From positions 1-64,000 of the forward strand of contig JAFQYM010000064.1 of the NCBI GenBank assembly GCA_017406465.1: 64,000 nucleotides of DNA, written 5' to 3'. Position numbers and translations under genes: made by a program. Positions 412 through 37,857 of the stretch are shown piece after piece. Each line of letters starts with the position of its first letter. Position 1 is the first letter of the stretch. Origin of the DNA: Kiritimatiellia bacterium. GTDB taxonomy: Bacteria > Verrucomicrobiota > Kiritimatiellia > RFP12 > UBA1067. The notes below the pieces were generated by a model, which was not told where the DNA came from, did no database searches, and saw nothing but the letters and a program-made list of their open reading frames with translations.

Positions 412-3400
412 TTACGGAAGAAGTACGAGCGAGCCGAACCCGGACGGCGTCCACGATTCAAGGCCGCGGCCCCATGCCGCCGCGCCGCGCGCCGCGCCGG
501 AATCGGTGTCGGTAAGCCTGAGCGAAAGCCCGAGACGCGTACCGGGCTGCGGACGGATTCCTCCCGCGTCACGCCACGGGATGCGGAACTCGTAGCAGGT
601 GTCGTTGCCCTTGCGCACGACGGCAATCTCGTATACGGACGAGTCTTTCGCGAGCTGTCCGCTCGCGAGGCCCGCGGCGTGCGCGGCGGGGCGGTAGACC
701 GTGTGCTTCCCCGAGCCGCTGCCCGGATTCGCCGCGGAGACCCACCACTCGATCGCGGCGCTGTCCGTTCCGGCGAGGCGGTTTGCGGGATGTAGCCCTA
801 TCTGCAGCGCGTCGCCCCTAAGCGTGTTCTCGCCCGTCTGCGCACTGTGGACGTCGTCGCGCACGCGCACCGCCATGTAGAGCGCTTCATCGTCCCACGC
901 GAGCTGCGCGATGCCGGAGAGGTTGTCGGGCGTCCACTTGTAGCCGCCTTCGGACGCGATCTGGTTCGCGCAGAGAAGCGGAATCGGATCGGCGAAATCC
1001 CAGTCGGAGAGGTCGCCGTCGATCTTCCGCGCCTTCGCGGCACGATGCGCCTCCGTCGCCCAGTCGGTGCCGTCGTGAAGCGTGAGGCGGATGTTGTCGT
1101 AGAGCGCACCGCCATTTTCGCCACTCGCGACGGGTTGCACCTGCACCTTGACGTCGTCCGGCTTCGAGTTGAGCACCTTGACCATGAACTGCCACGCACC
1201 GTGCGTATCCTTCGGCGCGGTGAAGACGTCCGGCATGTAGAGGTTGCGCGAGGAGCCGTTGCTGTTGACGAGCGACGCGTTCGAGCCCGCGTTCATGTTG
1301 TCCGTGCGCATCCACGCCGTGTAGAGGAGCTTGCGGCCCGGCGACGGATTGTCGGCGCGCTGGAATAGCTGAATCCAGCCCTTGCCGTGGTCAAGCGAAA
1401 GAGCGTTTCCGTCCTCGCCCGGACGGGAGCCGTCCAGCTTCACGATCCTGCCGCCGCCGTTCCACGACTCCTTCGACCCGCCTTTCGCCTCGAATCCGCC
1501 GTTCAAGAGGAGGTTGCCAAGCGTCGCGGGATCGATGACATCAACAGCGAAGTCGGTCTGCGCCATGACGTTCTCCTTGCCGCCTCCGAGCTTCCAGGCG
1601 ACGCGCGCCACGCCTTTCGCGGGGCCGGAGGGGAACGTCTCGGACGGAAGGTCGAGGATGAAGTGTGCGCTCTCGCCGGGCGCAAGGCTGAACGCCTTGC
1701 CCGACTTCCCGCCGGGAAAGACCGCGACACCGACTACTCCCTCGACGGGCGTGCGCAGCGGATTGCGCACCGAGACGCGCACCTGTGGCGCGGCGCCTTT
1801 CACGAAGCTCACTGAGGGCTTCGGCGTGAGCGGACCCTGCCCCTCGAGCGTGAGCGTGCAGCGGACGGCGAGAGGCGTAAGCGGCAGCCCCTCGTAGATC
1901 AACGGCATCGCGCCGGCCTTTATTGAAATAGTGTCGCCCTTGGCGGCGATGGTTCTCTCGTTGCCCTGGTGGTCGGTACTGACGATGGTGGAGCCGGGAG
2001 TCGCGGGGATATTCACCTCGACAGGCGCGGACTTCTCGTCGCCGTTCGCGGAACCGACTACGGCAAGCGCCGTGCCGTCCTTCCGCTCGAACACCATGAC
2101 GCGAGCGCCGGGTTCGGCATAGTAGGCGCCGACTGGGCGGGCGTTGCCGAGCTTCGCGGACAAGACGGCGAGCGTGGCGGCTACTGGGCGCGGCGTATAG
2201 TCGTCGAGGAGGTACTTCCAGTTTCCGGCGGGGTTCGCCTCGCCGCCGAAGTAGATTATGCCCTTCACGCCGGCGACGAGCTGCGCCGGCCATACGCGCA
2301 GCACGTTGCGCGACTGGAGGACGCTTCTCTCGAGCGCCTCGCGCCCGTCCATTCCCCACACCGATATGCCCGCGGCGGACTCGTCGTTCCAGACGGTCTT
2401 GATGCCGCCTGCAGCGGCGTCGGCAATCGCCTCCGCGGCGCTTTCGTACTCGCCGTAGTGGATCGGGAGGATGTCGACGTGCTTGCCGATTCCCGCACCG
2501 AGGACATCAAGACGGAAGTTGCGCGGCCAGAGTCCGCCGGCCATCATCGAGTGCGCCTTCGGGTTCACCTTCCGGAGTTCCTCTGTGCCGATCTCGCAGA
2601 AGCGGCTGTAGTCGGCGGCAGGGTTCGAGCTCTTGTTTCCGGGGGTGATCTCGTTGAGCCATTCGATGCCGAAGACGCGCTTTCCGAACCGCTGAGAGAT
2701 CGCGCGGATAGACTCGCGCCAGCCGGCCTCGTCGAACGGATACGGCTCGAAGCCGGGCGAGTGGACGTTCGGCGGGAGCACCCACTCGGGCGCGCCTACG
2801 AGCATAAGCCACGGCTTGATGCCATGCCTCTCCTGGCGATCCATCTGCGCGGATATTCCATCAAACCTGTATTCACCGCGCTTCGGCACAAGCGCACCCC
2901 AGTTGACAAACATGCGGTTCACGGAGAAGCCGAGCTTCGCGGCCGTCTCGCATTCGAGTTCGGTGTTGAGGTCGGTCGCGCCGAAGGGCGCGCGCCTTCC
3001 GCCAAGCTCCTTGTCGACATCGGGTATGACGCCGAAGAACGCGTCCACGGAAGTGTCGCCGCTGCGGCCTTCCGCAAGGAAGCATCCGAGGCGCCCGCCC
3101 AAGACGCCCGAGAGGTCAACTTTCGCCGTTGAGCCTGGCGCGGGCATCTTCGCGGTCGTGGAGCCGACCTCCTCGATCTTCCCGGCGTCGTCGAGCGCGA
3201 GGATCTTTATCGCGACGGGCTCTCCCGCCTTCGCGTCGGCGCCTGCCACGAGATCGACGACGGGCTTGTCGCGTCCGGCGACGAAAAGCCCGCCAGCCGT
3301 GTTAGCGACGATGTCGAGCCCGCGCACTGGCCGCACAATCTTCGGCACGCCGCATGTCTTGGTCCAGGGGAAATCCTTGTCGTCTCCGCCACGGAAGCGC

Positions 3401-4200
3401 ACATGGTAGAACAACGAATTATAGCGGTAGAGCTTCTTCGCCGTCTGCTTCACGCGGACCGTACCCTTCCCGGGCTTGACGGGCCTGAACGCCCAGCCGA
3501 GGCCCGGGATGCCGACGTGGTGCGCGTGCTTCTCGTGGACGCCATCGGGATTGTCGATCCACGGTCCGCAGGGGAACACGACGACATGGCACTTGTCGTT
3601 CCAGTATTCGGACGCGTCGAGGTAGTAGTCCGCGACGATTTCGAACGACTCGCCTTCGCGGATCTCCTTCATCGGCTCGTCGGTGCCGGGCCTGAAGCAT
3701 CCGCGAGGGACGATCCAGCTCTTCTTGTAGGTGATTCCGGCGGGCGGTTTCGCGCGCGCGGCCTTCGCCTCCGCCTCAGCCTTCCGCTTCGCGGCCTCCG
3801 CGCCGGACATCGCCCAGGTGATCTTTCCGCAGAAGATCTTGTGCGTCGCCTTGCCCCAGTCGCCGTTCGGCGCGATGAAGGCGAGCGGGCCGAAGTGCCC
3901 GACCTTGTCGCTCCCCTTCGCGGTGAAGGCGAACACCTTCGTCTCGCCCTTCTTCATCGTCTGCGGCGGACGCCACTCGCCGGTGCCCATCCAGCCGCCG
4001 TCGGTCTTGAACGTGTGCATCGCGACGGTCACGTTCTCGCTGGGTCCGAGGTCCTTCTTGAGCGTGACCTTCACCTGAAAGCCGGAATCGGGAACGACCT
4101 TGTCCGGCGTCTCGACCTTGAGCCAGTCGTCTTCGTGAACTGCAGCATGAAGTGCAAGCGCCGTGCCTGCGACAATCAATGCGGAAACCAGTTTCTTCAT
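412..4200 (-). CDS. Large secreted glycoside hydrolase (TIM barrel plus C-terminal CBM9-like domain)
   Basis: 1262-residue protein. The ATG at 4200 is chosen because it opens a signal peptide (MKKLVSALIVAGTALALHA) and has AAGGA upstream; the reading frame is open further upstream but has no signal there. N-terminal beta-rich modules are followed by a TIM barrel (about residues 430-720). The barrel has the clan-A acid/base motif in GIEWLNE (about residue 515) and a candidate nucleophile in WNDESA (about 606). A jelly-roll-like carbohydrate-binding region follows, then a C-terminal domain with IDGDLSDW and AWDDEALYMAVRVRDD, typical of CBM9/DOMON modules. It probably cleaves a complex polysaccharide outside the cytoplasm. 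Substrate and GH family are not certain; a GH39/GH5-like clan-A enzyme is my best reading. It has its own promoter with a dyad shared with the gene at 8830. Confidence 0.8.
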   Translation of the reverse strand: MKKLVSALIVAGTALALHAAVHEDDWLKVETPDKVVPDSGFQVKVTLKKDLGPSENVTVAMHTFKTDGGWMGTGEWRPPQTMKKGETKVFAFTAKGSDKVGHFGPLAFIAPNGDWGKATHKIFCGKITWAMSGAEAAKRKAEAEAKAARAKPPAGITYKKSWIVPRGCFRPGTDEPMKEIREGESFEIVADYYLDASEYWNDKCHVVVFPCGPWIDNPDGVHEKHAHHVGIPGLGWAFRPVKPGKGTVRVKQTAKKLYRYNSLFYHVRFRGGDDKDFPWTKTCGVPKIVRPVRGLDIVANTAGGLFVAGRDKPVVDLVAGADAKAGEPVAIKILALDDAGKIEEVGSTTAKMPAPGSTAKVDLSGVLGGRLGCFLAEGRSGDTSVDAFFGVIPDVDKELGGRRAPFGATDLNTELECETAAKLGFSVNRMFVNWGALVPKRGEYRFDGISAQMDRQERHGIKPWLMLVGAPEWVLPPNVHSPGFEPYPFDEAGWRESIRAISQRFGKRVFGIEWLNEITPGNKSSNPAADYSRFCEIGTEELRKVNPKAHSMMAGGLWPRNFRLDVLGAGIGKHVDILPIHYGEYESAAEAIADAAAGGIKTVWNDESAAGISVWGMDGREALERSVLQSRNVLRVWPAQLVAGVKGIIYFGGEANPAGNWKYLLDDYTPRPVAATLAVLSAKLGNARPVGAYYAEPGARVMVFERKDGTALAVVGSANGDEKSAPVEVNIPATPGSTIVSTDHQGNERTIAAKGDTISIKAGAMPLIYEGLPLTPLAVRCTLTLEGQGPLTPKPSVSFVKGAAPQVRVSVRNPLRTPVEGVVGVAVFPGGKSGKAFSLAPGESAHFILDLPSETFPSGPAKGVARVAWKLGGGKENVMAQTDFAVDVIDPATLGNLLLNGGFEAKGGSKESWNGGGRIVKLDGSRPGEDGNALSLDHGKGWIQLFQRADNPSPGRKLLYTAWMRTDNMNAGSNASLVNSNGSSRNLYMPDVFTAPKDTHGAWQFMVKVLNSKPDDVKVQVQPVASGENGGALYDNIRLTLHDGTDWATEAHRAAKARKIDGDLSDWDFADPIPLLCANQIASEGGYKWTPDNLSGIAQLAWDDEALYMAVRVRDDVHSAQTGENTLRGDALQIGLHPANRLAGTDSAAIEWWVSAANPGSGSGKHTVYRPAAHAAGLASGQLAKDSSVYEIAVVRKGNDTCYEFRIPWRDAGGIRPQPGTRLGLSLRLTDTDSGAARGAAAWGRGLESWTPSGFGSLVLLP

Positions 4201-4240
4201 TGCTTTTTCCTTTGTTTTAAGCCGTTTGCTTAGTTGTGTA

Positions 4241-4341
4241 AATGGAAGTTGGAGTGAAGAGTTGGAGTTGGAGAGTGGAATTTGAGATTTTTTGTTTCGA
4301 AATTTTTGCCGCAGAGGCGCAGAGACGCCGAGTTCGCAGAG
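4241..4341. repeat. Heptamer- and octamer-repeat tracts in the leader of the large glycosidase
   Basis: Two adjoining low-complexity arrays lie in the roughly 170-nt untranslated leader. 4310-4341 is four octamers of type CGCAGAGR. 4241-4285 is a degenerate array of AGTTGGA/GAGTGGA-like units with a period near 7. The octamer is close to the CACAGAGG array inside the dus gene (62212-62235). Confidence 0.7.
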
Positions 4342-4377
4342 AGTTGTTTTCCCCTTGTCAGGCAATTGACTGGCGCG

Positions 4378-4420
4378 ATTTTACCAAAAGCGCCGCGAAG
4401 CAACAATACACGGAAGTGTA
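4378..4420 (-). promoter_or_regulatory. Promoter with TACAC-N4-GTGTA operator
   Basis: Minus strand: -35 TTGTTG (4401-4406), 17-nt spacer, -10 TAAAAT (4378-4383) with an upstream TGG. A perfect dyad TACAC-TTCC-GTGTA (4407-4420) abuts the -35 box, centred near -42, the usual place for a class II activator. The same arrangement occurs at 8868-8910. Confidence 0.75.
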
Positions 4421-4432
4421 GTCGACCCGGAA

Positions 4433-5761
4433 TCAGATGAACATCGCCATGTAGTGCGGCAGCGTGATCTTCTTTCCCGAAACGCCGACGTTTCCGTCGA
4501 TGAACTTGTAACCGTACGGCACCTGCCTGTTCTCCAGTGCCTCGTTCAACGAGATGGTCGCTCCATTCGACGCCTTGACCTCGGCCGGCACGATTCCGCC
4601 GTCGCGCTCAATCGCGAATTCGATTTCACGCGTCCCGTCCATGGTCTTGAAATAGTAAAGTGGGATGCCCTTGCGGTCAAGCATGCCGGCGATCAGATTC
4701 TCGTAGAGTCCACCCTTGGCGTTCCCCTTCAACCGCCCGGAGTACAGCAGCCCCTTGGTTTCCGTGCCATACATAGCCGAGAGCAGTCCAATGTCCGAAA
4801 GATACAGCTTGAACCATCCGTCCCGGACCTGTGCGTTCAGCGGCACCTCCGCCATCGTGACATTCAGCGCACGGGATGCGAACGACGCATCGCAGAGCCA
4901 GTTCACCGAGGTGGCGTACTTGCGTTCACTGCCGCCCTTTTCCACCTCGGCATATTTGAACTTGCGGTTCTCCTTTGCAAGAAGGCGCGGGATCGCGCGG
5001 TAGCAGGCTTCGATTTTCGGGATATCCGTCGTGTCCGCGTACTTGTGGATGTCGTCCACGTACGAGGCGAGTATCTTTTCCTGCTCCTCCTGCACTGGCC
5101 CGAAATCCCCTGCCTCGACATACGCCTTGACGACAGCCGGCATGCCGCCGACGATCATATACTCCCTGAGCAGATCCGAATACCTGCGGTTCACCGCCTC
5201 TGGAACAATCTCGCGTCGATCGCAGTATCCCTTCAGAACCGCGACAGCCTCTTCCGTAATGCCCCTCGCCCAGAGGAACTCCTCGAAATCGAGGGAATGC
5301 ATCGTGACCTGCCGCTCGTAGCCGACAGGGATTGACTTCGGTTCGCGCCTGTCGCGATTCTTCTTGTTCTTGTATTTTATCCCAAGCAAAGAGCCCGAGG
5401 CAATCACATCGCAGCATCCGTCTATCGCGAACGACTTCAGCGCAGTCCTTGCATTTGCGCACTCCTGTATCTCGTCGAGGAAAATCAATGTCCTCCCAGG
5501 CAGAATCCGCCGTGTTGCATCGTATGCGGAAATCTTTCGATAAAGGTCGTCCGCCTTGAGGCTGCCGTCGAACAACGAGCCGGCGTCGGGATCCAGTATG
5601 AAGTTGAATTCGATGAAACTTTCGTACTGCTCCCTCCCGAACTTCTCGATGATGAATGTCTTTCCAATCTGACGCGCACCCTTGACGAGAAGACAGTCTT
5701 TATGCCGAGCATTCTTCCACTGCATCAGCTTGTCGTAGAACTTTCGCTTGAGTTCTGCCAT
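4433..5761 (-). CDS. AAA ATPase with DUF4143-type C-terminal domain
   Basis: 442 residues starting MAELKRKFYD. The ATG at 5761 is chosen over an upstream in-frame ATG because AAAAGGAG lies 7 nt before it. The N-terminal P-loop is GARQIGKT and Walker B is TLIFLDEIQ, both characteristic of the AAA_14/DUF4143 family. The second half carries the DUF4143 nuclease-like region (FEIAIERDG, VPAEVKAS). These ATPases are common, patchily distributed genes in anaerobes, with no settled function. It stands alone between two surface-protein genes. Its promoter is near consensus, with three evenly spaced boxes upstream. Confidence 0.88.
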   Translation of the reverse strand: MAELKRKFYDKLMQWKNARHKDCLLVKGARQIGKTFIIEKFGREQYESFIEFNFILDPDAGSLFDGSLKADDLYRKISAYDATRRILPGRTLIFLDEIQECANARTALKSFAIDGCCDVIASGSLLGIKYKNKKNRDRREPKSIPVGYERQVTMHSLDFEEFLWARGITEEAVAVLKGYCDRREIVPEAVNRRYSDLLREYMIVGGMPAVVKAYVEAGDFGPVQEEQEKILASYVDDIHKYADTTDIPKIEACYRAIPRLLAKENRKFKYAEVEKGGSERKYATSVNWLCDASFASRALNVTMAEVPLNAQVRDGWFKLYLSDIGLLSAMYGTETKGLLYSGRLKGNAKGGLYENLIAGMLDRKGIPLYYFKTMDGTREIEFAIERDGGIVPAEVKASNGATISLNEALENRQVPYGYKFIDGNVGVSGKKITLPHYMAMFI

Positions 5762-5786
5762 ATACGCTCCTTTTAAAAAGGGCAGA

Positions 5787-5894
5787 ATTATATCAAATAT
5801 CGCCAAATATTGTCAATATGCAACTTTTCAGACACATCTGCACAATAAAATTGCAACTTTTTGGACGATAGTTTGGCATATATTTGCAACTTTT
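5787..5894 (-). promoter_or_regulatory. Consensus promoter with three 33-bp-spaced AAAAGTTGC boxes
   Basis: Minus strand: TTGACA (5811-5816), 18-nt spacer, TATAAT (5787-5792). Upstream, the box AAAAGTTGC occurs three times, starting on the plus strand at 5820, 5853 and 5886. The step is exactly 33 bp, about three helical turns, while the sequence between boxes is not conserved. This looks like a cooperative regulator array for the ATPase gene. Confidence 0.72.
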
Positions 5895-5977
5895 GGGCGA
5901 GATACCCTATCAGCATCTTATGGCGTTCGGCCTGTATTATCGTGGCCTTCCAGTCGAGGCACCAGCCCTACCTCCCG

Positions 5978-8830
5978 TCAGCGGACGATGATGATGAACG
6001 CGGAGGATCTCGCCTCGTAGCAGCCGATGTCGATCTTGCTGCCGATTTTGCGCGGATTGCCCGCTAGGTCGACAGACGCCATCCCATCGTAGTTGATGCC
6101 CTTGTTGTAGAGCGAACCACCAGACGCCGGCGTGTAGTCGCCGTTCGCATAGTTTTTGAATGCGGCAGAGGTCAGTCCGAGTATTGACCCCTTCTGGTCG
6201 TAGGTTTCCGCAGCGTCTGATGCGCAGTGATCGAACAAAGTCGCAGTTCCGCCGAATGGAACGGTGGTTACGGCCAGCTCATCGTTGACCTTAATGCGTT
6301 TTTCGCAGCAGAACGCCACGCAGTTGCGGACAAGCGTGGACGCGTTGTTCGCCAGAATGCCGCCCGTATGGCTGCCATAGCAGCCGACGACCGTGCAGTT
6401 CACGGCGCTCGCGCCGGCCGTGCCCAGCATGATGCCGCCCACCATATTCGCAAAGGTGGGTGCCGTGCGGGGATTCCGGCAGTCGATCACGAGACAATTC
6501 TCCACCCGCCCCGTCCCGGCATATACGCCGGCTGCACCTGCCTTCGCCCAGTTGGCTTCCGTCGCTTGTGCCGTGCAGTTAGAGACGGTGCAATGCGTCA
6601 GGACTGCAGAACCCCCTTCCAGAAACACGCCGCCGCCGTACGCACTCGAGTTCGAAGACTGGGAAATGCTACAATCGCGGATCACGCAATTAGACACCAC
6701 ACCCGCCGCGGCATAGACGCCCCCGCCACCCTTGCCGTCCGCGATGTTGACGAACCCGTTTTCCAGCGTCATACCGCTGAGCAGCGCATTGGCGTCTTCA
6801 AGCCAGAACAATCGATGATTTTTCCCGTAGCCTGTTTCCGTACTCGCATTGGAAACGACGACCCGGGACGGATCTTCGTCGCAACCGACGACGCGAATCG
6901 CGTTCGTCACCATGATCGGATTCGAGACCGGATAAGTTCCCGGCGCGACGTGGACCGTGCAGGGCATCGTCTGCGCGATGTCTTCCAGCGAGGCCACCGC
7001 GGCGCCGATCGTCTTCTTCGGCAGCGCGGACGTCCCGCCGTGGTTCGCGTCGTCGCCTGTGGTGGCGACATAGCGCACCGCCGGATCGAAGGTTGCGTTG
7101 ACGATAGTCATCGTCGCAGTAGAGGACGTTCCGACCGTATCGCCCGAGACGGTCAGCACAATTTCTGCGTCGGCATCGACGGTTGCCGTATAGACCGGCG
7201 TGATGGTAATATCGACCGAAGCCTCGCCAGACGGAATCGTGACGGACGTCACACCCGGATTGGACACCGCGCTCAGACCCGCACCCGAAAACGCCACGTC
7301 GACCGCGAGTGCCGGAAGCCCCGTCGCATCGGCATCGGCGCGGGCGATGCGGAACGTGCCAGCCGTGAGTGTTCCTTCATCGGCGTTCGCAACAACGGTA
7401 ACGGCAAGCGCGCCGATGTGGAATGCTGTAGGGCATGTCATAGAAACAACCGTTCCGCTCGTCGCCGTCGCGGCGATCGTGGCCGTGTATGTTCCGGCGG
7501 CAAGACCCGAAACGACGGCGGAATAGGTTGCGGGAAGCGCCGTATCGGATGTCGTCATCGCGAAGTCGGTGCCGCCCGCCGTGCAGACGATTGAATCCGG
7601 GGCGTTTCCCGACACCTCGACCGAGACGATGAACGTTCCTTCCGCGTTGCGTGCGAGAACAGGCGTTGCGAGAATAGGAGCGGACAGATCCACCTCCACG
7701 ACATCATCAAGAACGGCGAACGAAGCCGGCGCGTTGACCGAATCGTATTCCGCCTTGATCCAGTCCGCCGAGGCGGTCCCGTTCAGGATGCGCACTTCGT
7801 CCATGTCGCCCTGGAAGCAGTAGTCCGTGCTCGTCTGATGCCCGCCAAAGGCCCACGTATCTCTGCCGGGATCGAGAATCTTCCGCGCCGAAGACGTCGA
7901 ATAGATCTCATCGCCGTCGGAATAGGAGACGAGCGTTGACGCCGACTTGTCGTATCGGAAGGCGATGTGCCCCCAGGTGTCGGTGACAAGTTCACCCTTG
8001 CCGCTATTGCCTTGGTGCGCTCCCGAACCATCCACCCCCACGCCGACGGAAAAATACGTTCCTCCTTCGACGATGGCGACAAAGCCGTCTTTATTCCATT
8101 CATCGCGATTCTTGTTGACGAGAAGAACCGAGCCGCGCACGCCGGTCGTCTTGAACCAGCCGGAGAACGAGAAGTTGCCGATGGACGACAGCGCTCCGGA
8201 CTTGACGGGGTTTGAGAACTGGACGCCCTTCGAGATCCTCTTCGTCATCACGCCGCCCGCCTTGCCGCCGGTCGTCGCGGTCGTGGCGCCATTAACGGTA
8301 ATTGCAGTCGCATGGCCACTTGCATCGGCAATCGACGCGCCACCGTGGAAGACAGCCGCGTAGCGCGACCAGACATCGGTTGCGCTGACCGTCGGCAAAG
8401 TGGTCGTGCCGTCCGCGCCGTAGTAGCAGGTAATCTTCGTGGCCGTGCCGACGATGGACGGCACCTTGACCCAGATGCAGGACGTCCCCGTCCTATCCCA
8501 TGTCTCGATCTCGTGCGGCAGGAGCGCACCCGTCGCGTCCGCGAAGCGCAGGTCGGAGCCGTCCGTCGCGCAGTCGGCGTAGTCGAAGCCCGTCGGCGAG
8601 CCGGCCTCAAGCGCCACGAGAACGGGGAAGTCCGTCAGTTCCGTGGAGCCCGCATAGCCGGAAATCGTTATCGGAATCTTTTTGGAAAACGGCGTCGTGT
8701 CGAGCGTGCCACCGATCGCCGCTGCGGCACAGAGCGCGGCGAGAAAAGTTGCGAGAATCGCACCGCTGCGATTGTGCGAAGATAGCGGCGTGGAAGGCGA
8801 TTCGAGACATTCGATCTGCGGCTTTTTCAT
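5978..8830 (-). CDS. Secreted beta-helix surface protein with LamG-like and Calx-beta-like domains
   Basis: 950 residues. The start is fixed by AAAGGAG before the ATG at 8830. An extended N-region leads to a hydrophobic stretch (AILATFLAALCAAAA), read as a signal peptide. Residues about 50-150 resemble the DUF2341 domain (PFSKKIPITISGYAG). A concanavalin-A/LamG-like domain follows (about 170-370), then Ig/Calx-beta-like repeats. The C-terminal parallel beta-helix (about 600-930) has rungs such as NCVIRDCSI and HCTVSNCTA. It ends GCYEARSSAFIIIVR, like the protein at 12602. It is probably a surface-exposed adhesin or glycan-binding protein; no catalytic residues were recognised. It shares its operator type with the large glycosidase. 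Confidence 0.82.
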   Translation of the reverse strand: MKKPQIECLESPSTPLSSHNRSGAILATFLAALCAAAAIGGTLDTTPFSKKIPITISGYAGSTELTDFPVLVALEAGSPTGFDYADCATDGSDLRFADATGALLPHEIETWDRTGTSCIWVKVPSIVGTATKITCYYGADGTTTLPTVSATDVWSRYAAVFHGGASIADASGHATAITVNGATTATTGGKAGGVMTKRISKGVQFSNPVKSGALSSIGNFSFSGWFKTTGVRGSVLLVNKNRDEWNKDGFVAIVEGGTYFSVGVGVDGSGAHQGNSGKGELVTDTWGHIAFRYDKSASTLVSYSDGDEIYSTSSARKILDPGRDTWAFGGHQTSTDYCFQGDMDEVRILNGTASADWIKAEYDSVNAPASFAVLDDVVEVDLSAPILATPVLARNAEGTFIVSVEVSGNAPDSIVCTAGGTDFAMTTSDTALPATYSAVVSGLAAGTYTATIAATATSGTVVSMTCPTAFHIGALAVTVVANADEGTLTAGTFRIARADADATGLPALAVDVAFSGAGLSAVSNPGVTSVTIPSGEASVDITITPVYTATVDADAEIVLTVSGDTVGTSSTATMTIVNATFDPAVRYVATTGDDANHGGTSALPKKTIGAAVASLEDIAQTMPCTVHVAPGTYPVSNPIMVTNAIRVVGCDEDPSRVVVSNASTETGYGKNHRLFWLEDANALLSGMTLENGFVNIADGKGGGGVYAAAGVVSNCVIRDCSISQSSNSSAYGGGVFLEGGSAVLTHCTVSNCTAQATEANWAKAGAAGVYAGTGRVENCLVIDCRNPRTAPTFANMVGGIMLGTAGASAVNCTVVGCYGSHTGGILANNASTLVRNCVAFCCEKRIKVNDELAVTTVPFGGTATLFDHCASDAAETYDQKGSILGLTSAAFKNYANGDYTPASGGSLYNKGINYDGMASVDLAGNPRKIGSKIDIGCYEARSSAFIIIVR

Positions 8831-29050: not shown

Positions 29051-32000
29051 CTATATCTCGCCAAAGAGACTCTGGAGCTTTTCCGTCGTAACAGGCTTGG
29101 CGAGCACTTTCGCGAAGAGCCTTATGTCGAAGGTGGACCCCACGTCCACGTCGGCGGTAACGGCGACGATCGGGATGTCGTCGAAACGACTGTCCTTCCT
29201 CATTGCCTCTGCAAGCTGGGCACCGTCCATCTTCGGCATCCACATGTCGGTCAGCACGACGTCTGGCGTCCAGTCTGCCATGATCGCCATCGCGTCCTCG
29301 CCGTTCTCCGCAGTGCGAACCTCGGCGACATTGAGATTCTTCAGGTGTATCCTGAGTATCCTGCGGTTTGTCTCCATATCGTCCACCACGAGCACTTTCC
29401 CGGGCACGGCGGGAAGCACATGCTCAGACGGCTTGGAACTGGTCTCGGAGCGCCTCACCACCGAGAGCTCCGGTATGTCGATGCAGAACTCGGTTCCCTT
29501 GCCGAGGCAACTCCTTGCCGTCACGGTGCCGCGCGCGTTGTCCACCATGCGCTTCACGATGGGAAGCCCAAGTCCCGTGCCCTTCGCGTCGTTCGCGGTC
29601 CGCTCCATGCGGCTCGCGATGTCCTGCACGAAAGGATCGAACAGCTTCGCCATCTTCTTCTCCGAGATGCCGCACCCGGTGTCCGCAACCTCGATGTGCA
29701 GCGTATTCGTCTCGGAACGCCACGCGGCCCTGACCGTTATCGACCCCGTCGTTGTGAACTTGGCCGCGTTGCCGACGAGGTTGATGAGGATCTGCCGCAT
29801 ACCCTGTTGCGAAAGCCCAACCACGGGAATTCCGTCGCCCTCCACCGAGACGACGAGCTTTACGCCATGCCGCCTGATGCGGTAGCCGAATATGGCCGGG
29901 AGCTCGTCGAGAAGCTTCCTTATGTCGCACTCGCCGGTGCGCATGTCCGTCGCGCCGGCCTCGAGCTTGGAGAGGTCGAGGATGTCGTTGATGAGGTCAA
30001 GAAGCGCATTCGCGCTCATGAGTATGCCGTCCGTGTACTCCTGGCGTCTGTCGCTGTCCACGTCCTTGCGCGAGAGGAACTCGGCAAAGCCGATGACGGC
30101 GTTGAGGGGCGTCCGGAGCTCGTGCGACATCATCGCAAGGAAGCGAGTCTTCGCCTTGGCGTGCTCTTCTGCCGCGGCAGCCGACATGTTGGCCCTGAAC
30201 GCCTCGCGCTTGAGGAGACGCACCATATAACCGCTGTACACCACGATCGCGAGCAGCACGAGGAGCACCACGGACACAATCACCTTGAGCATCTGGTCGC
30301 CGGTGAGCCCGAACACCTTGTGTACGACCTTGCGCTCCGCCGCCGCGCTCATGAACATCTCCTGCAGCCGCACGGCGTCGATGCCGGTCACCGCTTTCCT
30401 CAGGATCGAGACGAGCTCGGGCGGAGCCGACGGATTCGCAAGCATCTCGAACTCGAGCATGTCGTCCTCCGCCCCGTAGAACTCGGCGACCATCGTCGGC
30501 ACGGGGATGGAAAACACCGACTTCGCCCCGAACACGGCGTCGCCGGCCTTAGCCGGATAGGGAATCCAGAACATAGTCTCCCCCCGCATGAACTTCGCCT
30601 GCGCGGTGTAGATGCCCGTCTGCACCTGCGGGAGTATCTCGAGTCCCGTGCGACGCTTGACCTCGGACTGCAGCAAAAGCGCAAGTCCAAGCGCGCGCCC
30701 CGACTTGTCCCTTATGCCAAACGGCCACGGGGAGAAGTCAACGTACACGGGCTCCCCCGTCTTTACCCTGGCGTTAAGCCACTCCGACTCCTTGAGCGTG
30801 AGCGGCGCCATCTCGCTCCGCGAGCCGTAGTGGTGGTCCCTTATCATCCGCATGTACTTGGGCAAGTCGTCGCACAGCTCGGCGAGTGCGTTTTCGAGGG
30901 CCGCGAAGACATCCGCCCTGTCCAGCGCCGCGCATATGTACATCGGATGCGCGACACACAGGTGGAGGGCCGTCTCGTGCGCGAGCTCGGGCATCTCAAC
31001 GTCGACGCATGCGTCTATCTCGCCCCCGAAGTAGGCACGCAGCATCTCGCGATCCGAAGAGTATTCCTTAAAAGTCACCCCCAGCGGCTCCGACTCGAGC
31101 TGCCGCTTCACGCGCAAGGAGCTCACGGTTCCAGTCAAGAGGCCAACCCTCATCCCCCGCCAAGTCTGCGGGCTGCCCGGCTCGTACGGAAGGCTCTTGT
31201 GCGTCCAGAGGTAGACGCGAAGCATGCCGATGGGCGTGTGCGGATAAAGGAAGCTCCCGCGCCGGGCGACGTCGAAACTGAGTCCGCCGATGATGTCGAG
31301 CCGCCCCTTCTTCACATCCTCGATGCTCTCCTCGTAACCGCCGTAGACATAGTCGAGCTCCCACTGCGTCGTAGAGCAGATGGCCTTGAGCCAGGTCTCA
31401 AGATCGCCCGAATGATCGCCGTCCGGCGACACGCTGAAGATGTCGCCGCGGCTGTACGCCGCAATGCGGACACGGTTCGCGGGCTTCTGGATGCCGAAAT
31501 GCCTTTCGCGCAACTCGTCCACCCTGTCGATACGGTCAATGTAGAAGTCGCGGTACGCCTTGGTGAGCTTCGCGAGAAGTTCTGGCTTGCCCTTCTTGAC
31601 GGCAAAGTACGCGTTCCGCGCTCCAATGGGAACGACCTCCACAACATCCTTCGGACGGCGACTATAGGGCGTGTATAGGAAGAGCGCGTCGACATTGCCG
31701 CTGTGGAGCGCCCGCACCGCATCGGCGCTGCGCGGAAACTCCACGTAGTCTGGCGATAGTCTCACGTGCTCGAAATACTTTGTCCTGTCGTCGCTCTGGC
31801 CCTGCGAGACAGGCGAATACCCGACCCTCATCGTAGGCCAGTCGGTTATCTTCATGGAAAGCATTTCCTTGGCGCGCTCCGGCGCGGCATAGAGCGCGAA
31901 GTGCATCCGGCTCATCGGCTGAAGCGGAAAGTCGTACCTCTCTATGAGCTCGGGCGTCCTGAAAGCGGAGCAGATCACGTCAACCTCGTCTCCCGGAAGC

Positions 32001-32221
32001 GAGGCGTCGTTTCCTGGAGCGACCCACGCCGGCTCGAGACCGGCTGTCTTAAAAACCTCCTCCATCACCTCGTGTGCGTATCGCACGTCGGGTGCGGCCC
32101 AGACGTCAAGCGACGCATCCCGAACGCAATCGACGACGCGTACAGTCTCGGCCGAAAGACCTTTCCATGCAAATGCCAGCACCAGCGCGGCAGCAAGCAG
32201 AACAAAGCGCAAGGTCTTCAT
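29051..32221 (-). CDS. Hybrid sensor histidine kinase with tandem SBP_bac_3 sensor domains
   Basis: 1056 residues: signal peptide, then about 620 residues of periplasmic sensor made of what look like three solute-binding (SBP_bac_3) units. The third opens LTLKESEWLNARVKTGEPVY, as in EvgS/BvgS-type sensors. One membrane helix lies at about 644-668. HisKA follows (FLAMMSHELRTPLNAVIGF, H near 699), then an ATPase domain (N-box NLVGNAAKF, G-boxes ADTGCGIS and GTGLGLPI). A C-terminal receiver has DD and phosphoacceptor Asp in LTDMWMPKMDG (about 990). No HPt or DNA-binding output is present, so a partner must exist elsewhere. Start at 32221 with GGAGG upstream, 19 nt after the gene at 32241. Confidence 0.9.
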   Translation of the reverse strand: MKTLRFVLLAAALVLAFAWKGLSAETVRVVDCVRDASLDVWAAPDVRYAHEVMEEVFKTAGLEPAWVAPGNDASLPGDEVDVICSAFRTPELIERYDFPLQPMSRMHFALYAAPERAKEMLSMKITDWPTMRVGYSPVSQGQSDDRTKYFEHVRLSPDYVEFPRSADAVRALHSGNVDALFLYTPYSRRPKDVVEVVPIGARNAYFAVKKGKPELLAKLTKAYRDFYIDRIDRVDELRERHFGIQKPANRVRIAAYSRGDIFSVSPDGDHSGDLETWLKAICSTTQWELDYVYGGYEESIEDVKKGRLDIIGGLSFDVARRGSFLYPHTPIGMLRVYLWTHKSLPYEPGSPQTWRGMRVGLLTGTVSSLRVKRQLESEPLGVTFKEYSSDREMLRAYFGGEIDACVDVEMPELAHETALHLCVAHPMYICAALDRADVFAALENALAELCDDLPKYMRMIRDHHYGSRSEMAPLTLKESEWLNARVKTGEPVYVDFSPWPFGIRDKSGRALGLALLLQSEVKRRTGLEILPQVQTGIYTAQAKFMRGETMFWIPYPAKAGDAVFGAKSVFSIPVPTMVAEFYGAEDDMLEFEMLANPSAPPELVSILRKAVTGIDAVRLQEMFMSAAAERKVVHKVFGLTGDQMLKVIVSVVLLVLLAIVVYSGYMVRLLKREAFRANMSAAAAEEHAKAKTRFLAMMSHELRTPLNAVIGFAEFLSRKDVDSDRRQEYTDGILMSANALLDLINDILDLSKLEAGATDMRTGECDIRKLLDELPAIFGYRIRRHGVKLVVSVEGDGIPVVGLSQQGMRQILINLVGNAAKFTTTGSITVRAAWRSETNTLHIEVADTGCGISEKKMAKLFDPFVQDIASRMERTANDAKGTGLGLPIVKRMVDNARGTVTARSCLGKGTEFCIDIPELSVVRRSETSSKPSEHVLPAVPGKVLVVDDMETNRRILRIHLKNLNVAEVRTAENGEDAMAIMADWTPDVVLTDMWMPKMDGAQLAEAMRKDSRFDDIPIVAVTADVDVGSTFDIRLFAKVLAKPVTTEKLQSLFGEI

Positions 32222-32240: not shown

Positions 32241-34556
32241 CTACTTCGAAAACGCAGACCTAAGCGCCGCCTTCCTGTTTTCCACGGCGCGTTCGGTGTC
32301 CTTCAGCGTCCGCGATATCTCCTCGTTCTCGGGAGCGAGCTCATGCGCCTTCTTGACGTACTCAAGCGCTTTGTCGAGCCGGTTCGTCTTGCGGAAGATT
32401 ATCGAGAGGTTGTTGAGGACGGCCGGCTCGTCGGGGCGCTTTATGAGCGTGCGCTCAAGGTAGAACTCGGCGTCCTTGTACTTCTCCTCCATGAGAAACG
32501 CCATGCCGGTGCCGAAGTTCGCCTCGGGATCCTCGGGGTCGATCTGAAGGACGGTCGCGCCGTACTTGCGCGCCTCCACGAAGTCGGCGCGGCGAAGCGA
32601 AAGCCGGAGCCCCTCGTAGGGCGTCATCTGCATGAACGTGCGCATGCGCTCGTAGTCTATGAGCCGCATCATGTGCTTGACGGCGTCGTTCCATTCGTCA
32701 AGCTCGTTCGCAAGCTGCTCGTCGTCCCTCATACGGGCGAAGCGCGAGATGCGCCACGACACGGCGGAGACCGCGCTGCGAAGCGCCGACGACATGACGG
32801 CATGGGGTTGCTCCTTGGCAGCCCTGATTATGCGCTTGGCAATGTTGTTCGCCGTGGCGACGCCGCGTTCGGCGTCGGCATCGGAAAGCCCCTTCTCCCG
32901 CGCGACGAAGCCGGAGCACTTCGGAAGCGGCTTCCGCGCGCGACGCCAGAACTCGAAACCGAGCTGAACGGCGGCGTTGTCCATGCCGTTCGTCATTTCG
33001 CCGGCCCAGACGCGCAAAAGGACGGGAACGCCGACCTCGACCGACGAACGGTCGGCAGACCCTTCCTCGAAATGCCTCATGCGGATGTGCTTATCCCACG
33101 CCGAAGGACCGCTCATCATGTTTAGCGGCTTCACTTGCGAGCCCATCAGCGAGCCAATGAGCTCTATGCCGGGGTCGAGCCGCCCGTCGGTGAACAGGAA
33201 CTTCGCATCGCCGCACTCGCGCACCGTCTCCACAACGGCATCGTGCACCAGCGACCTAAGCTCGGTTTCGACGGGTCGGTAAATGCGAAACACGAGCGGC
33301 AGCATGCATACGATGACGATAACCTGCACGAGGTTGCGCATCACGGGGCCACGCGGCTCCGCGACCTTGAACGTCATGTCGTCTTCGTCCAGGTAAAACG
33401 CCTCTTGGCACCCGATGGCGAAGCACGACGCCGCAAGCGCAAGTGTTATGACCGTCATAAGCATGAACACGCACTCAAGGAAGTCGGAGTTGATCTCGAC
33501 TGCACCTGAAGAGAAGGACCAGAGCCTCGTATACGGGAGGATCCCGCACTGGACAAGCGCCATCACGCCCGCGAGGAGGAGCACAATCCCGATCCTGAAC
33601 CTTATTGGCTCGGTGTTTCGGCTAAGCAGCGGGAACATGACGAGAGACACAACGAGTGGGAAGAGCGAAAACGTAACGGCAAGCATCCAGCCAATGGGTG
33701 AAGCAGCCGATGCAAGAGCGCCGTAGTAGTTGACGGCATAGTGGAACGCGAGGTCGAAGGCGCTCCATTCGCTCGCCTCGAGCCCGCCGTGCGAGACAAA
33801 GGCCACGATGTTCAGTGACACAACGGATACGAAGCCAAACGCAAACGAGAAGAACATGCGCCAATACGGCATATAGGCCAAATGCCCTGGATCGTCGTCG
33901 AGTTTCTGCTTGTCGTTGATCGCCTCGGCAAGCGCAAGCCGACTGGCAACATAGTATACGCCAGGGAGCAGCAACCCGACGATCGTCTCGCCGGCGACGA
34001 AACCAGCAAACAGCATAGAGATGAGAATTCTCCATAAGCCGCCGACTTTAAGGAAGCGAAGGAATGCATGGAGCGAGAATACCAGACCCAAAAACTGAAA
34101 GGCCGCCGACGAGACGGGTGACACTCCGCGGAAGGCGGCATCACCCGCGCAGAAGCAGATCGTCGCGAGCATGGAGAAGAGCGGCGCTATCCAACTCCAG
34201 TGTTCAAGGCTCTTGACGCGAACGAGGGAAGCGAGTATCTGCCGCACCACGAGATAGACAAAGAAGGCCGACACTCCGCCCACTACGGCACCGATGATCC
34301 TGAGCACCTGCGCTATGCTCTGCGCGCCAAAAGCCCCAAGGCAGTACGAAACGAGAACACACCACAGGCCATGAAAAATCTTCGCCGGGGGCCTTATGCC
34401 AGCGGCAACGGTCATTTCGTCCCAAAGCGAGGGGTCAAGCCCCCGTGGTGAGAAAATGAGGTATATCAACATGAAACCGATGCCGGCAAAAGTCGCGAGC
34501 CGCAAATCGCGCTTACCGAGGTTGTCTCTCTCAAAAAGTTTCTTGTCCATATTCAT
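32241..34556 (-). CDS. Polytopic membrane protein with C-terminal TPR region
   Basis: 771 residues. The N-terminal two thirds hold about ten to twelve membrane helices with an early exposed acidic loop (GLDPSLWDEM), reminiscent of membrane glycosyltransferases of the DUF2723/GT39 type, though the family is not certain. The last 150 or so residues form TPR-like repeats (KYKDAEFYLERTL, AVLNNLSIIFRKTNRLDKA, ALEYVKKAHELAPENEE). It precedes the hybrid sensor kinase by 19 nt on the same strand, so the two are one operon and may work together in envelope sensing. A GATAAT box and GAAGGTAG lie upstream. Confidence 0.72.
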   Translation of the reverse strand: MNMDKKLFERDNLGKRDLRLATFAGIGFMLIYLIFSPRGLDPSLWDEMTVAAGIRPPAKIFHGLWCVLVSYCLGAFGAQSIAQVLRIIGAVVGGVSAFFVYLVVRQILASLVRVKSLEHWSWIAPLFSMLATICFCAGDAAFRGVSPVSSAAFQFLGLVFSLHAFLRFLKVGGLWRILISMLFAGFVAGETIVGLLLPGVYYVASRLALAEAINDKQKLDDDPGHLAYMPYWRMFFSFAFGFVSVVSLNIVAFVSHGGLEASEWSAFDLAFHYAVNYYGALASAASPIGWMLAVTFSLFPLVVSLVMFPLLSRNTEPIRFRIGIVLLLAGVMALVQCGILPYTRLWSFSSGAVEINSDFLECVFMLMTVITLALAASCFAIGCQEAFYLDEDDMTFKVAEPRGPVMRNLVQVIVIVCMLPLVFRIYRPVETELRSLVHDAVVETVRECGDAKFLFTDGRLDPGIELIGSLMGSQVKPLNMMSGPSAWDKHIRMRHFEEGSADRSSVEVGVPVLLRVWAGEMTNGMDNAAVQLGFEFWRRARKPLPKCSGFVAREKGLSDADAERGVATANNIAKRIIRAAKEQPHAVMSSALRSAVSAVSWRISRFARMRDDEQLANELDEWNDAVKHMMRLIDYERMRTFMQMTPYEGLRLSLRRADFVEARKYGATVLQIDPEDPEANFGTGMAFLMEEKYKDAEFYLERTLIKRPDEPAVLNNLSIIFRKTNRLDKALEYVKKAHELAPENEEISRTLKDTERAVENRKAALRSAFSK

Positions 34557-34622
34557 CTACCTTCGATTCGCTCGTATTATCCCATAATTATTAAGCCGCG
34601 TCAATGAGCGGAGGACAAAGAA

Positions 34623-34655
34623 AAATGCAAGACGCCGTGGTGGTGTCTTGCATTT
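34623..34655 (-). terminator. Rho-independent terminator of the secreted-protein operon
   Basis: An 11-bp perfect stem (AAATGCAAGAC with GTCTTGCATTT) and an 11-nt loop, followed on the minus strand by a T-rich run. It lies just downstream of the PEP-CTERM gene stop. Confidence 0.85.
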
Positions 34656-34678: not shown

Positions 34679-35188
34679 TCAGACCTGCTGACGACGGCGC
34701 TTCAGACCAAGCAACATACCTCCCACGAGGAACAGCAGCCCGCTCGTCGGCTCCGGGACGTTGTAGGTGTTATGACCAGGAGCCTGACCAAAACCACCAG
34801 ACGCAAGAGAAGTCGGAGCTGCTATGCTGCCAGAACGCGCGATATATGAATTCACAAGAGAATCATACGTTTCAGGGGTCGTCTTGGTTCCATTCCACAA
34901 TTCAACGTAGAACGAATATGCATTGCTGCCATAGCTACCAAGTTCTGTCTCAAAATAAGAATTACCCCAGTAAGCATTTGCAACTTCACTCGCAGACTTA
35001 CCTTCTATTCTTATTCCGCTATCAACATCAGATGTCGTAGCACAAATCCACGCATATGGATCAGTCGCATTCTCATTGGTATTTCTAGTGTCCTCATATG
35101 CCTCATCGGACACCATCCAATAGATGACATCTGCATAGGCCACTGATAATGATAGGACCGCCAACGCTGTTATCAATACTTTTTTCAT
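34679..35188 (-). CDS. PEP-CTERM sorting-signal protein
   Basis: 169 residues: signal peptide (MKKVLITALAVLSLSVAYA), a Ser/Thr/Asn-rich middle with Trp and Tyr, and a C-terminal tripartite signal VPEPTSGLLFLVGGMLLG followed by KRRRQQV. That tail is the PEP-CTERM motif recognised by exosortase, which processes and anchors or releases exported proteins, usually in bacteria with extracellular polysaccharide. It is the last gene of a four-gene operon of secreted proteins, before a strong terminator. The function of the middle region is unknown. Composition is more AT-rich than the window average. Confidence 0.9.
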   Translation of the reverse strand: MKKVLITALAVLSLSVAYADVIYWMVSDEAYEDTRNTNENATDPYAWICATTSDVDSGIRIEGKSASEVANAYWGNSYFETELGSYGSNAYSFYVELWNGTKTTPETYDSLVNSYIARSGSIAAPTSLASGGFGQAPGHNTYNVPEPTSGLLFLVGGMLLGLKRRRQQV

Positions 35189-35228
35189 GTCAATAGTTCT
35201 ATTTGAATTTCAAGCAACTTAGGTTAAA

Positions 35229-35945
35229 TCAGTCAAAAGAAAGGGTAGCCTTAGTGCCATCGACACCGATGTACCAGAAACCCTGCCCAACAGGAATGGT
35301 AATGCTCCCGACATTAGCGCCATTGCGCTTCCAACCAGCAGTTATTCCAGCAGGCGCACCTGCCTTCGGCACCGTATACTTATAACGCAGTGAAGTTCCA
35401 TCCTGTGGAATCACTATTTCATCGCCGGCAACCATGCCCGACACAACTAACGATGCGTCAGCCTGAGTTGTGTTAGCAACAAAATTGACACCTGCCGTAA
35501 TGGCTGGCGAAGAAGGCAGTACCGTAGCATTGCCATAGATGCAGAATGTCTTGGGAGTCCCAGCCGCAGGAGCCTCTGGGAGAACAATCCAGAAGGATGT
35601 TCCATAATTTACTGTCTGATTGGCCTCAGCCGCAGACGCCTCAATGATCTGAGCAGGAGTCGCGCTTATAGCAGCCTGCCATCCCTCATCTGTAAGTTTC
35701 CATGCTGAATATGCAGAACCCGAATGGACATAAATCCATGTGTTGTTTTCAAGTCCATTGGTGCAGACGAGATCTTTGACGGAAAGCGCTACAGTGCTAT
35801 TAGTCAACGAAGTGAACGGCACCGCCACCAAGGTGTTTTTGTTCGTCGTAGAAATCTGCGTAACCCCAATTATAGGACTAGGCTCTGGCTCTGCTATCGC
35901 CACAAGAGCGAGGGAGGCAGCCGCGAGTGAGAGAATTGTTTTCAT
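35229..35945 (-). CDS. Secreted protein of unknown function
   Basis: 238 residues with signal peptide (MKTILSLAAASLALVAIA). The mature part is rich in Thr, Ala and Val, with probable beta structure (TLVAVPFTSLTNSTVAL, TNGLENNTWIYVHSG) and a near-C-terminal VGQGFWYIGVDG. No cysteine pattern, anchor or catalytic motif is recognised. It is the third gene of the secreted operon, 40 nt before the PEP-CTERM gene. It is probably a structural or surface protein expressed at a high level from the promoter at 37783-37857. Confidence 0.75.
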   Translation of the reverse strand: MKTILSLAAASLALVAIAEPEPSPIIGVTQISTTNKNTLVAVPFTSLTNSTVALSVKDLVCTNGLENNTWIYVHSGSAYSAWKLTDEGWQAAISATPAQIIEASAAEANQTVNYGTSFWIVLPEAPAAGTPKTFCIYGNATVLPSSPAITAGVNFVANTTQADASLVVSGMVAGDEIVIPQDGTSLRYKYTVPKAGAPAGITAGWKRNGANVGSITIPVGQGFWYIGVDGTKATLSFD

Positions 35946-35965
35946 TTTTCCTTTACCTCCAAACT

Positions 35966-36685
35966 TTACTTGACCGTTGTCGTGGACACCTTGAAGAACT
36001 GCGCACCAGGCTCCTTGGGCGTCACAAGCTTAATCTCGCCACCCTTGTTGCCGTTGGCACACGTCGCCGCAGGAGGAACGGAGAACTCCTTCTTTACGTC
36101 AGATCCGGCCTGCAGCGTATAAGCAACAAACGGAACCGTATCGGCAACCGTCACAACGACGTTCGCGTTTTCAACCTCAATCTTTGTAACCCTCGGAGCA
36201 GGGACGTTGAGCGCCGCAAGATCATAACCATCGGCCGACACACCTTTAGCCGCGTCTGCGGTAACGATTGCGCCTTCCGATGACACTATGCCGTCTGCAA
36301 CGGCAACCTTGACATTTTGGGAATCGGCGTCAAACTTGCCTGCAAGACCAGTAACCTTCGTGTCGCCGTTCTCGTCAGTCGCAAATACGCGAGTGTCAAG
36401 CAGATAGACGCCAAAGGTCCCTTCTTTATAAGTTTCAGCATCCACGGTGAAAAGCACTGGTACACACTTGCCATCCTTGGCGGCCTTTACCGCACAAACA
36501 ATGGTCTGCTCGCCGCCATTGGCAGGCGTCCAAACAAGAGCATAGTACTCGTCGTCGAGGACAGGTGTGCCGTCGGCATACTGGTCGGGACCAGGAGTCG
36601 AGAATGAAATGTTAAGATCCTTGTCCGCACCAGCGAACGCTGCGACGGAAAGAAGCGCGAAAAGAACCGCAATTGTCTTTTTCAT
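35966..36685 (-). CDS. Secreted protein of unknown function
   Basis: 239 residues. The signal peptide (MKKTIAVLFALLSVAAFAGA) is followed by a beta-rich acidic domain (SFSTPGPDQYADGTPVLDDE, EYYALVWTPANGG). The C-terminus has a fibronectin-like feel (VTKIEVENANVVVTVADTVP, AQFFKVSTTTV). No family is recognised. It lies 20 nt after the previous gene's end in the same operon, and its sequence type resembles the other two uncharacterised members. The coding density, ribosome site and signal peptide make it a real gene. Confidence 0.75.
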   Translation of the reverse strand: MKKTIAVLFALLSVAAFAGADKDLNISFSTPGPDQYADGTPVLDDEYYALVWTPANGGEQTIVCAVKAAKDGKCVPVLFTVDAETYKEGTFGVYLLDTRVFATDENGDTKVTGLAGKFDADSQNVKVAVADGIVSSEGAIVTADAAKGVSADGYDLAALNVPAPRVTKIEVENANVVVTVADTVPFVAYTLQAGSDVKKEFSVPPAATCANGNKGGEIKLVTPKEPGAQFFKVSTTTVK

Positions 36686-36707
36686 TTTTTATATTCCTTA
36701 TTTAGAA

Positions 36708-37763
36708 TTACTGCTGCGCAGCCTTGATGACCGGAACAACCTTGTAGGTGCCCGTTTCCATCGGGATCTGGATGGCAGCAGCCGGATATTCGGTATCGCC
36801 AACCTCAGAACCAACCTTCTGCACCTTGAACTTTGCCTCTACTCCAGAAGCTACCGAACCATCAAACTTAATTGTAATAACTCCGGCAACCGCTTCGTCA
36901 GCTGGCGCGAGAGGAATCTTTGCATTGGCATCATCGTCCGCAATGCCAAGAACTTCACACTCCCAAGTCGCCAAACCATTCTCCGCAGTCTTGGCTTCAA
37001 CGGCCTCGCCAGAGGCATCAATTTCCTTCACTTCGCCATCCTGCCCAGCGGCAATTACCGCCTCGACCGCCGAACCATAGAGATTGGTCGTCGCGCCATT
37101 ATCGGTCACGGCGGCCGCCACAGCAACTTCGTACTTGCTCTCAATGGAAGTGATTGCACCAGAGCCATAGGCAGCGACACTGCTCAGATTGGCGAAGTTG
37201 TTGGAAATGGCAAACGAAGTCGTCGAAACCCCATTGGTATCGCCCGAGAGAAGATCATCCCCCTTGTAAAACTGAACCGTGCTCTTCCGATAGTCAAGCA
37301 CAATCTTGAATTGGGTTGCCGTTTCGGGGGCAGAAGGAGTGCCGCTGAGCTGAATCCACGCAGGCAAACCGTTGGTCGCTGCCGACGCAAAGCCGTAGAA
37401 GTTTGTGGCTGCTCCATTATTGCTGACGCCAACTGCAAAACCAGCTTGTGCTCCAACCAATTCAAGGTCAGAGACCTCGCTCGGCGTCAAAACAGCCGAG
37501 GAAGTAATCGTGACAAGACCATCATTCAACGCCGGCGTCGTGTCAAGCGGCGTAACTGTATATGCAGAGTCTTTGTCATTATCAATGTAGATCTTGGACG
37601 CATCAATTCTCTCAATCGTCCCGGCGACAGTGGCCTTGTTAGTGGTTACTGCCGCATCTGACGCCTCAACGCCAAACCAAACTTCTGTCGTATTTGCAAA
37701 AACAGAACTCGACGCGCACGCGAACGCGCACGCCACGATTCCCAAAACCTTTTCTGCTTTCAT
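36708..37763 (-). CDS. Secreted protein of unknown function, first gene of a strongly promoted operon
   Basis: 351 residues with signal peptide (GIVACAFACASSSVFA). The mature part is Ala/Thr/Val-rich and acidic, with probable LamG-like beta strands in the middle (TQFKIVLDYRKSTVQFYKGD). There is no anchor. An ideal AAGGAGGA ribosome site lies 5 nt before the ATG, and a rRNA-grade promoter lies upstream. High expression of an acidic, low-cysteine secreted protein fits a surface-layer or matrix component. That role is inference. Confidence 0.76.
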   Translation of the reverse strand: MKAEKVLGIVACAFACASSSVFANTTEVWFGVEASDAAVTTNKATVAGTIERIDASKIYIDNDKDSAYTVTPLDTTPALNDGLVTITSSAVLTPSEVSDLELVGAQAGFAVGVSNNGAATNFYGFASAATNGLPAWIQLSGTPSAPETATQFKIVLDYRKSTVQFYKGDDLLSGDTNGVSTTSFAISNNFANLSSVAAYGSGAITSIESKYEVAVAAAVTDNGATTNLYGSAVEAVIAAGQDGEVKEIDASGEAVEAKTAENGLATWECEVLGIADDDANAKIPLAPADEAVAGVITIKFDGSVASGVEAKFKVQKVGSEVGDTEYPAAAIQIPMETGTYKVVPVIKAAQQ

Positions 37764-37782
37764 CTATTCCTCCTTAAAAGGG

Positions 37783-37857
37783 TTGACGGCGCATATTATA
37801 CCCCCAAATGGGGGAAGCCGTCAAGGGGGTATTTTAATTTTTTTTTAAATTTTTTTT
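37783..37857 (-). promoter_or_regulatory. Very strong promoter with UP-like A/T tract and spanning dyad
   Basis: Minus strand: TTGACG (37819-37824), 18-nt spacer, TATAAT (37795-37800). Upstream (37830-37857) is an almost pure A/T tract of UP-element type. The -35 forms half of the inverted repeat TTGACGGC/GCCGTCAA (37817-37824 and 37783-37790), which brackets the core. The spacer holds a CCCCC/GGGGG pair. Confidence 0.82.

Follow-up and report, generated by a model that had tools for sequence, protein, structure and literature searches.

The window analysed here is a 64,000-nt stretch of contig C97, part of a metagenome-assembled Kiritimatiellia genome that spans 3.5 Mb and is 83% complete. 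Its central part carries the following genes, named A to E in the order of reading, together with these regulatory elements:

Gene A, 36708-37763, minus strand: 351 aa; secreted passenger, whose N-terminal ~225 aa are joined to the C module in locus L069
Gene B, 35966-36685, minus strand: 239 aa; secreted, predicted all-beta, with weak Ig-like resemblance and the motif FSTPGPDxYADGTxVLDGE
Gene C, 35229-35945, minus strand: 238 aa; secreted; the C module as a stand-alone protein, which elsewhere terminates giant proteins
Gene D, 34679-35188, minus strand: 169 aa; PEP-CTERM protein of the exosortase-substrate type
Gene E, 32241-34556, minus strand: 771 aa; 11 predicted TM segments, a TDG-x-LD segment and C-terminal TPRs
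UP-like A/T tract, 37830-37857, minus strand: upstream of the -35 element
Promoter TTGACG-N18-TATAAT, 37795-37824, minus strand: TTGACG at 37824-37819 and TATAAT at 37800-37795; 11 of 12 consensus matches
Palindrome CCCCC-N4-GGGGG, 37801-37814, no strand assigned: in the promoter spacer, kept in close relatives; possible operator
Shine-Dalgarno sequence AAGGAGG, 37769-37775, minus strand: precedes gene A
Terminator or attenuator hairpin, 34623-34655, minus strand: between D and E; sequence kept in the relatives G002 and G030
Second promoter-like site TTGACG-N17-GATAAT, 34576-34604, minus strand: before E; same arrangement in G030

Genes A to D are co-directional and separated by intergenic gaps of 22, 20 and 40 nt, and each encodes one N-terminal hydrophobic signal peptide, that of D comprising a hydrophobic segment at residues 4-22 and an AYA-D cleavage-type site. 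These reading frames, gaps and signals bear out the four-gene secreted operon that an earlier note had placed at 34679-37857; that extent includes A to D but leaves out gene E, a further member of the conserved cassette described below. The note had also called this DNA more AT-rich than its surroundings, and the GC contents of A, B, C and D (52.8, 53.9, 50.5 and 47.1%) indeed lie below the 59-65% of the neighbouring genes (surroundings ~62%). Recent horizontal transfer was considered as the source of this AT-richness and rejected, since A, C and D are AT-richer than their own loci in most relatives as well; low GC thus looks like a trait of these three genes and not a sign of recent arrival.

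Profile searches with A, B and C against Pfam and NCBIfam recovered no match above chance, so that the three secreted proteins for which the note could recognise no family also lack one in these libraries. Searches of the same three proteins against solved structures likewise returned nothing convincing. Structural models of B and C are all-beta and fairly confident (pLDDT 83 and 86, respectively). The best structure-library matches of B are tandem Ig-like proteins, weak and unreliable as evidence of homology, and C found no confident structural relative in the same kind of search. D, in turn, is the PEP-CTERM protein it had been taken for: its PEP motif, TM stretch and basic tail score 27.5 and 31.1 bits with the NCBIfam profile TIGR02595, against a cut-off of 16. 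D also has a conserved strand, YLYWMV.

The promoter upstream of A reaches an 11/12 sigma-70 match, a score never attained when the 192-nt intergenic region was dinucleotide-shuffled 2000 times, and it is kept in three relatives, G002 (with a perfect TTGACA-18-TATAAT), G008 and G030. In all three, an A/T tract and CCCC or a near variant are followed by TTGAC(A/G), a spacer with CCCCC-N4-GGGG, TA(T/G)AAT, and AAGGAGGA or a near variant. At the other end of the A-D unit, the hairpin at 34655-34623 is followed on the minus strand by the T-run TTTTTCTTTG; the hairpin GCAAGATGCC...GGTGTCTTGC is retained with its T-run in G002 and G030, and G004 carries a hairpin of unrelated sequence at the same position. 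Identity to the proteins of G002, G008 and G030 is 37-41% for A and 51-59% for B, and the persistence of promoter and terminator while the relatives' proteins share only ~35-60% identity argues that both elements are real. The near-consensus promoter, UP-like tract, ideal ribosome site and strong terminator to which the earlier note had drawn attention are therefore all present. The second promoter-like site, between this hairpin and E, suggests that E could be transcribed apart from A-D. Starting 19 nt after E is a gene (29051-32221) for a hybrid histidine kinase, whose sensor domains are of the solute-binding type and which also has a receiver domain; it may be co-transcribed with E.

The palindrome in the promoter spacer offers a possible regulatory lead. 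Genes of the csoR family were found in the window's own genome (G000) and in G002, G008, G030 and G031, and none was found in G004 or G013. Promoters of csoR genes carry ATACC(A/C)TACGGGGGTAT, of which only the right half is common to the operon spacer; the csoR-family promoter of the window's own genome (L130) likewise holds a G-rich palindrome, GGGGGTAT, between its -35 and -10 elements. Across the genome, the full 34-nt promoter occurs once even when 3 mismatches are allowed, and a looser spacer motif gives 4 matches, including the operon promoter itself, with 1 on the reversed control, from which we claim no regulon. CsoR-type regulation through the CCCC-N4-GGGG palindrome is raised here as a possible lead.

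We surveyed the gene neighborhoods of homologs recovered in searches with A, B and C, mapping about 50 loci and a further 20. Frequent gene orders were A-B-C-D-E, B-C-D-E, giantC-D-B and giantC-D-E-B. The loci were selected through matches to B or C, which inflates the cassette counts that follow. A C module lies directly upstream of D in 57 of 59 D genes, the two exceptions being one gene near a contig edge and one with B in front of D. B occurs within 12 kb of D in 54 of the 59 and E at most 3 kb downstream in 28, and some A-B-C-D loci, such as L041, are without E. The C module itself takes two forms, a stand-alone protein of ~240 aa (30 cases) and the last ~220 residues of long proteins of up to 2842 aa (27 cases). 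L069 encodes a single 851-aa protein that unites the N-terminal portion of A with the C module, which places A in the passenger slot; a profile comparison of A with the distant passengers of L044 and L101 revealed no relation, so the occupant of that slot varies.

In G008, D and B are fused in one frame at two loci (L089:6414-7799 and L093:4644-5912), with the order PEP-CTERM, arginine cluster, signal-peptide-like segment and B; these may be natural polyproteins in which an exosortase site stands beside a leader-peptidase site. In L170, a 1630-aa frame (2859-7751) within a double cassette matches B in its N-terminal part, suggesting that larger proteins may contain B as a domain as well. The window's own genome has a second cassette (L049:2-6999, on G000:C99), in which a protein of 1319 aa or more carries the C module at its end and is followed by D and E.

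The operon is thus conserved across species, one of the checks that the earlier note had proposed, and A-E is a real, conserved cassette of predicted surface proteins, unnamed in the databases and built around a known sorting system, with the C-D pair as its core. The note's suggestion of an undescribed system holds insofar as the cassette is conserved and lacks a database name; the unit is larger than described, including E, and its sorting system is a known one. The cassette looks like a previously undescribed route by which large proteins are presented at the cell surface.

Of the class's 346 genomes, 101 contain the B family according to the B profile. Among them are 50 of the 61 genomes in the window's own genus, further genera of its family and a few genomes from the order's other families; elsewhere in the class, matches are weak. 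The B-family relatives are Kiritimatiellia-type assemblies, several of them from rumen, goat, roe deer and horse gut. A degenerate-pattern scan for B was based on a 14-row alignment, the full set of 48 B proteins being too divergent. Our literature search found no paper linking Kiritimatiell- with PEP-CTERM.

The second check that the note had proposed concerned the sorting enzyme, and an exosortase gene is present in the genome itself (TIGR02602, 135.6 bits, G000:C50) as well as in 55 of 58 relatives. As a test independent of the B- and C-based choice of loci, we searched the window's own genome for PEP-CTERM proteins and recovered six, all of which match the D profile. In five of the six cases a C-profile gene immediately precedes the D-type gene; the remaining one is located close to a contig end, and the gene upstream of it is only weakly C-like. 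From what is established about the PEP-CTERM system (PMC1569441), D would be a substrate of this genome's exosortase. Four of the genome's D-type PEP-CTERM genes lie at L153, L154 and L155 (G000:C54, C60 and C34); most of them adjoin a gene for a secreted protein whose signal peptide is followed by ..ESANIVGY.., and the next gene starts MAWN... These loci resemble a sister cassette without B or E.

The 11 predicted TM segments of E all precede residue 425 and are followed by the nearly invariant TDG-x-LD segment and then by the TPRs. The window's E gave no match to PF11028 (TMEM260/DUF2723), nor did its own genome at an E-value of 1e-3, and in a defence-system library only the TPRs of E were matched. 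Two other members of the E family, however, pass the PF11028 cut-off of 24.2 bits: those of L100 (30.4 bits) and L101 (G038:C17; 27.9 bits). An acidic residue, expected as the catalytic one in the first extracytoplasmic loop, is present in the first-loop segment in 21 of 21 E members, with a shifting alignment column. Because two members pass the family cut-off, while the window's E is divergent and its acidic column is not fixed, we consider E likely to be a divergent TMEM260/DUF2723 relative and refer to it as a probable glycosyltransferase. It resembles that family and the TMTC O-mannosyltransferases in its multiple TM segments and C-terminal TPRs, with an acidic residue in the first-loop segment as well, and differs from them in the window protein's score below detection, in the unfixed position of that residue and in its placement within a cassette of predicted surface proteins. 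Plexins carry Ig-like IPT domains. Enzymes of the TMEM260, TMTC and POMT types are described in PMC11292533 as acting on plexins, cadherins and alpha-dystroglycan, those of the TMEM260 and TMTC types as O-mannosylating plexins and cadherins; PMC13123603 assigns cadherin domains an Ig-like fold. The Ig-like resemblance of B parallels these substrates, an analogy that is suggestive only.

Of the known systems that come near the cassette, PEP-CTERM/exosortase (EpsH) sorting shares with it the signal peptide and tripartite C-terminus of D and the exosortase in the genome; TPR and glycosyltransferase partners are also known company of that system (PMC1569441). The cassette differs in that the PEP-CTERM proteins found here are all of one small D type, nearly always encoded directly after a C-module gene, and in that the passenger itself bears no sorting tag. 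The TPRs of E in a PEP-CTERM setting recall PrsT (TIGR02917), the XrtA/PEP-CTERM TPR protein, but only these repeats match its profile (52.7 bits against a cut-off of 312.2), and E has an 11-TM region in place of a lipoprotein signal. Like the C-terminal domains of type IX secretion in Bacteroidota, the C module ends very large secreted proteins; unlike them, it has no NCBIfam match, also exists as a separate protein and is coupled to a PEP-CTERM partner.

The reading that we favour, with evenly divided confidence, is that A-B-C-D-E constitutes a modular surface-display cassette with D as anchor, C as docking module, B as accessory and E as glycosyltransferase. A to D would be exported by Sec, as their signal peptides suggest, and the displayed passenger would be A here and, in other cassettes, the long N-terminal stretch of proteins of 440-2842 aa. 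The C module, as a secreted beta domain, would serve to dock passengers to the cell surface, and D, encoded directly after it, would be its membrane-held partner, a role for C suggested by the strict adjacency of the two and by the position of C at the end of giant proteins. After Sec export, the exosortase would recognise the PEP-CTERM of D and thereby either fix the D-C-passenger assembly to the outer face of the cell or release it there. For B, a small secreted protein with Ig-like features, an accessory role is proposed. E, of the multi-TM TMEM260/DUF2723 type with TPRs, would add sugar to one or more of the beta domains; its assignment as the glycosyltransferase of the assembly draws on family kinship and linkage. 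The locus counts, the separate PEP-CTERM search in the genome, the exosortase gene and the D-B fusions speak for this reading, whereas the occurrence of E near only 28 of the 59 D genes, the missing PF11028 match of the window's E, the unfixed acidic column and the lack of a confident structural relative of C speak against it. What is observed is the anatomy of the cassette; C-D binding, anchoring, glycosylation and surface location are proposed.

Three other explanations were weighed. The earlier note proposed that A-D may rank with the cell's most abundant proteins, as a surface layer or matrix; on this reading they would be structural proteins made from a constitutive strong promoter. The near-consensus, conserved promoter with its A/T tract and ideal ribosome site fits this view, as do the several secreted beta-rich proteins. 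With 12 ribosomal-protein reading frames as reference (mean CAI 0.71), however, the CAI values of A, B, C and D are 0.31, 0.34, 0.23 and 0.21, against a median of 0.45 for 35 ORFs of the window and 0.76-0.79 for the neighbouring pnp and rpsO, a comparison tempered by the ability of AT-rich surface genes to evade codon selection. The claim of exceptional abundance is therefore not supported; codon adaptation, at values well short of the very high expression looked for in an S-layer, argues against routine very high expression of A-D. Given the conserved palindrome in the spacer of the strong promoter, regulated expression is at least as likely as constitutive high expression, and the palindrome leaves room for regulated bursts. 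Since the passengers elsewhere are also giant and more adhesin-like than lattice subunits would be, we regard a structural S-layer or matrix operon as very unlikely.

Alternatively, the PEP-CTERM proteins could be independent matrix proteins tied to exopolysaccharide, with the clustering of A-E reflecting shared regulation instead of a complex, and E serving the polysaccharide instead of protein. Exosortase genes are classically linked to exopolysaccharide loci (PMC1569441), and the exosortase gene of this genome adjoins one that resembles, by eye, a sugar-phosphate transferase. Independence sits poorly with the D-B fusions and with the fact that C and D stay adjacent in 57 of 59 cases whereas all other genes change places, and we consider this explanation unlikely. 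Carbohydrate capture, in which A and the giant passengers would bind or degrade plant or mucus polysaccharide with B and C as accessory binding modules tethered via D, would suit the gut and rumen hosts. One passenger has a weak Laminin_G_3 match and others have DUF4957 and InlB-like matches, all below curated cut-offs, but no catalytic carbohydrate family was found in any cassette protein tested, which makes this a quite improbable account.

Within the surface-display reading, a more specific proposal is put forward tentatively, as possible rather than probable: a two-part sorting scheme in which the tag resides on the small D and the passenger, of up to 2842 aa, carries only the C docking domain, complemented by a dedicated TMEM260-like glycosyltransferase and an Ig-like accessory. 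Exosortase substrates are usually described singly, with the tag on the cargo itself. If the proposal is true, tag and cargo would here be split between two proteins, unlike in described PEP-CTERM systems. If the C-D pairing is physical, exosortases would gain a cargo-adaptor logic, and the cassette would hint that bacteria have their own version of TMEM260-type protein O-glycosylation, with a limited, testable choice of likely substrates. The A-E families, which annotation libraries leave blank in about 100 genomes, can now receive names and boundaries, and this class of gut bacteria, of which few members have been cultured, is seen to pair, strictly, a small tagged D with an untagged docking domain.
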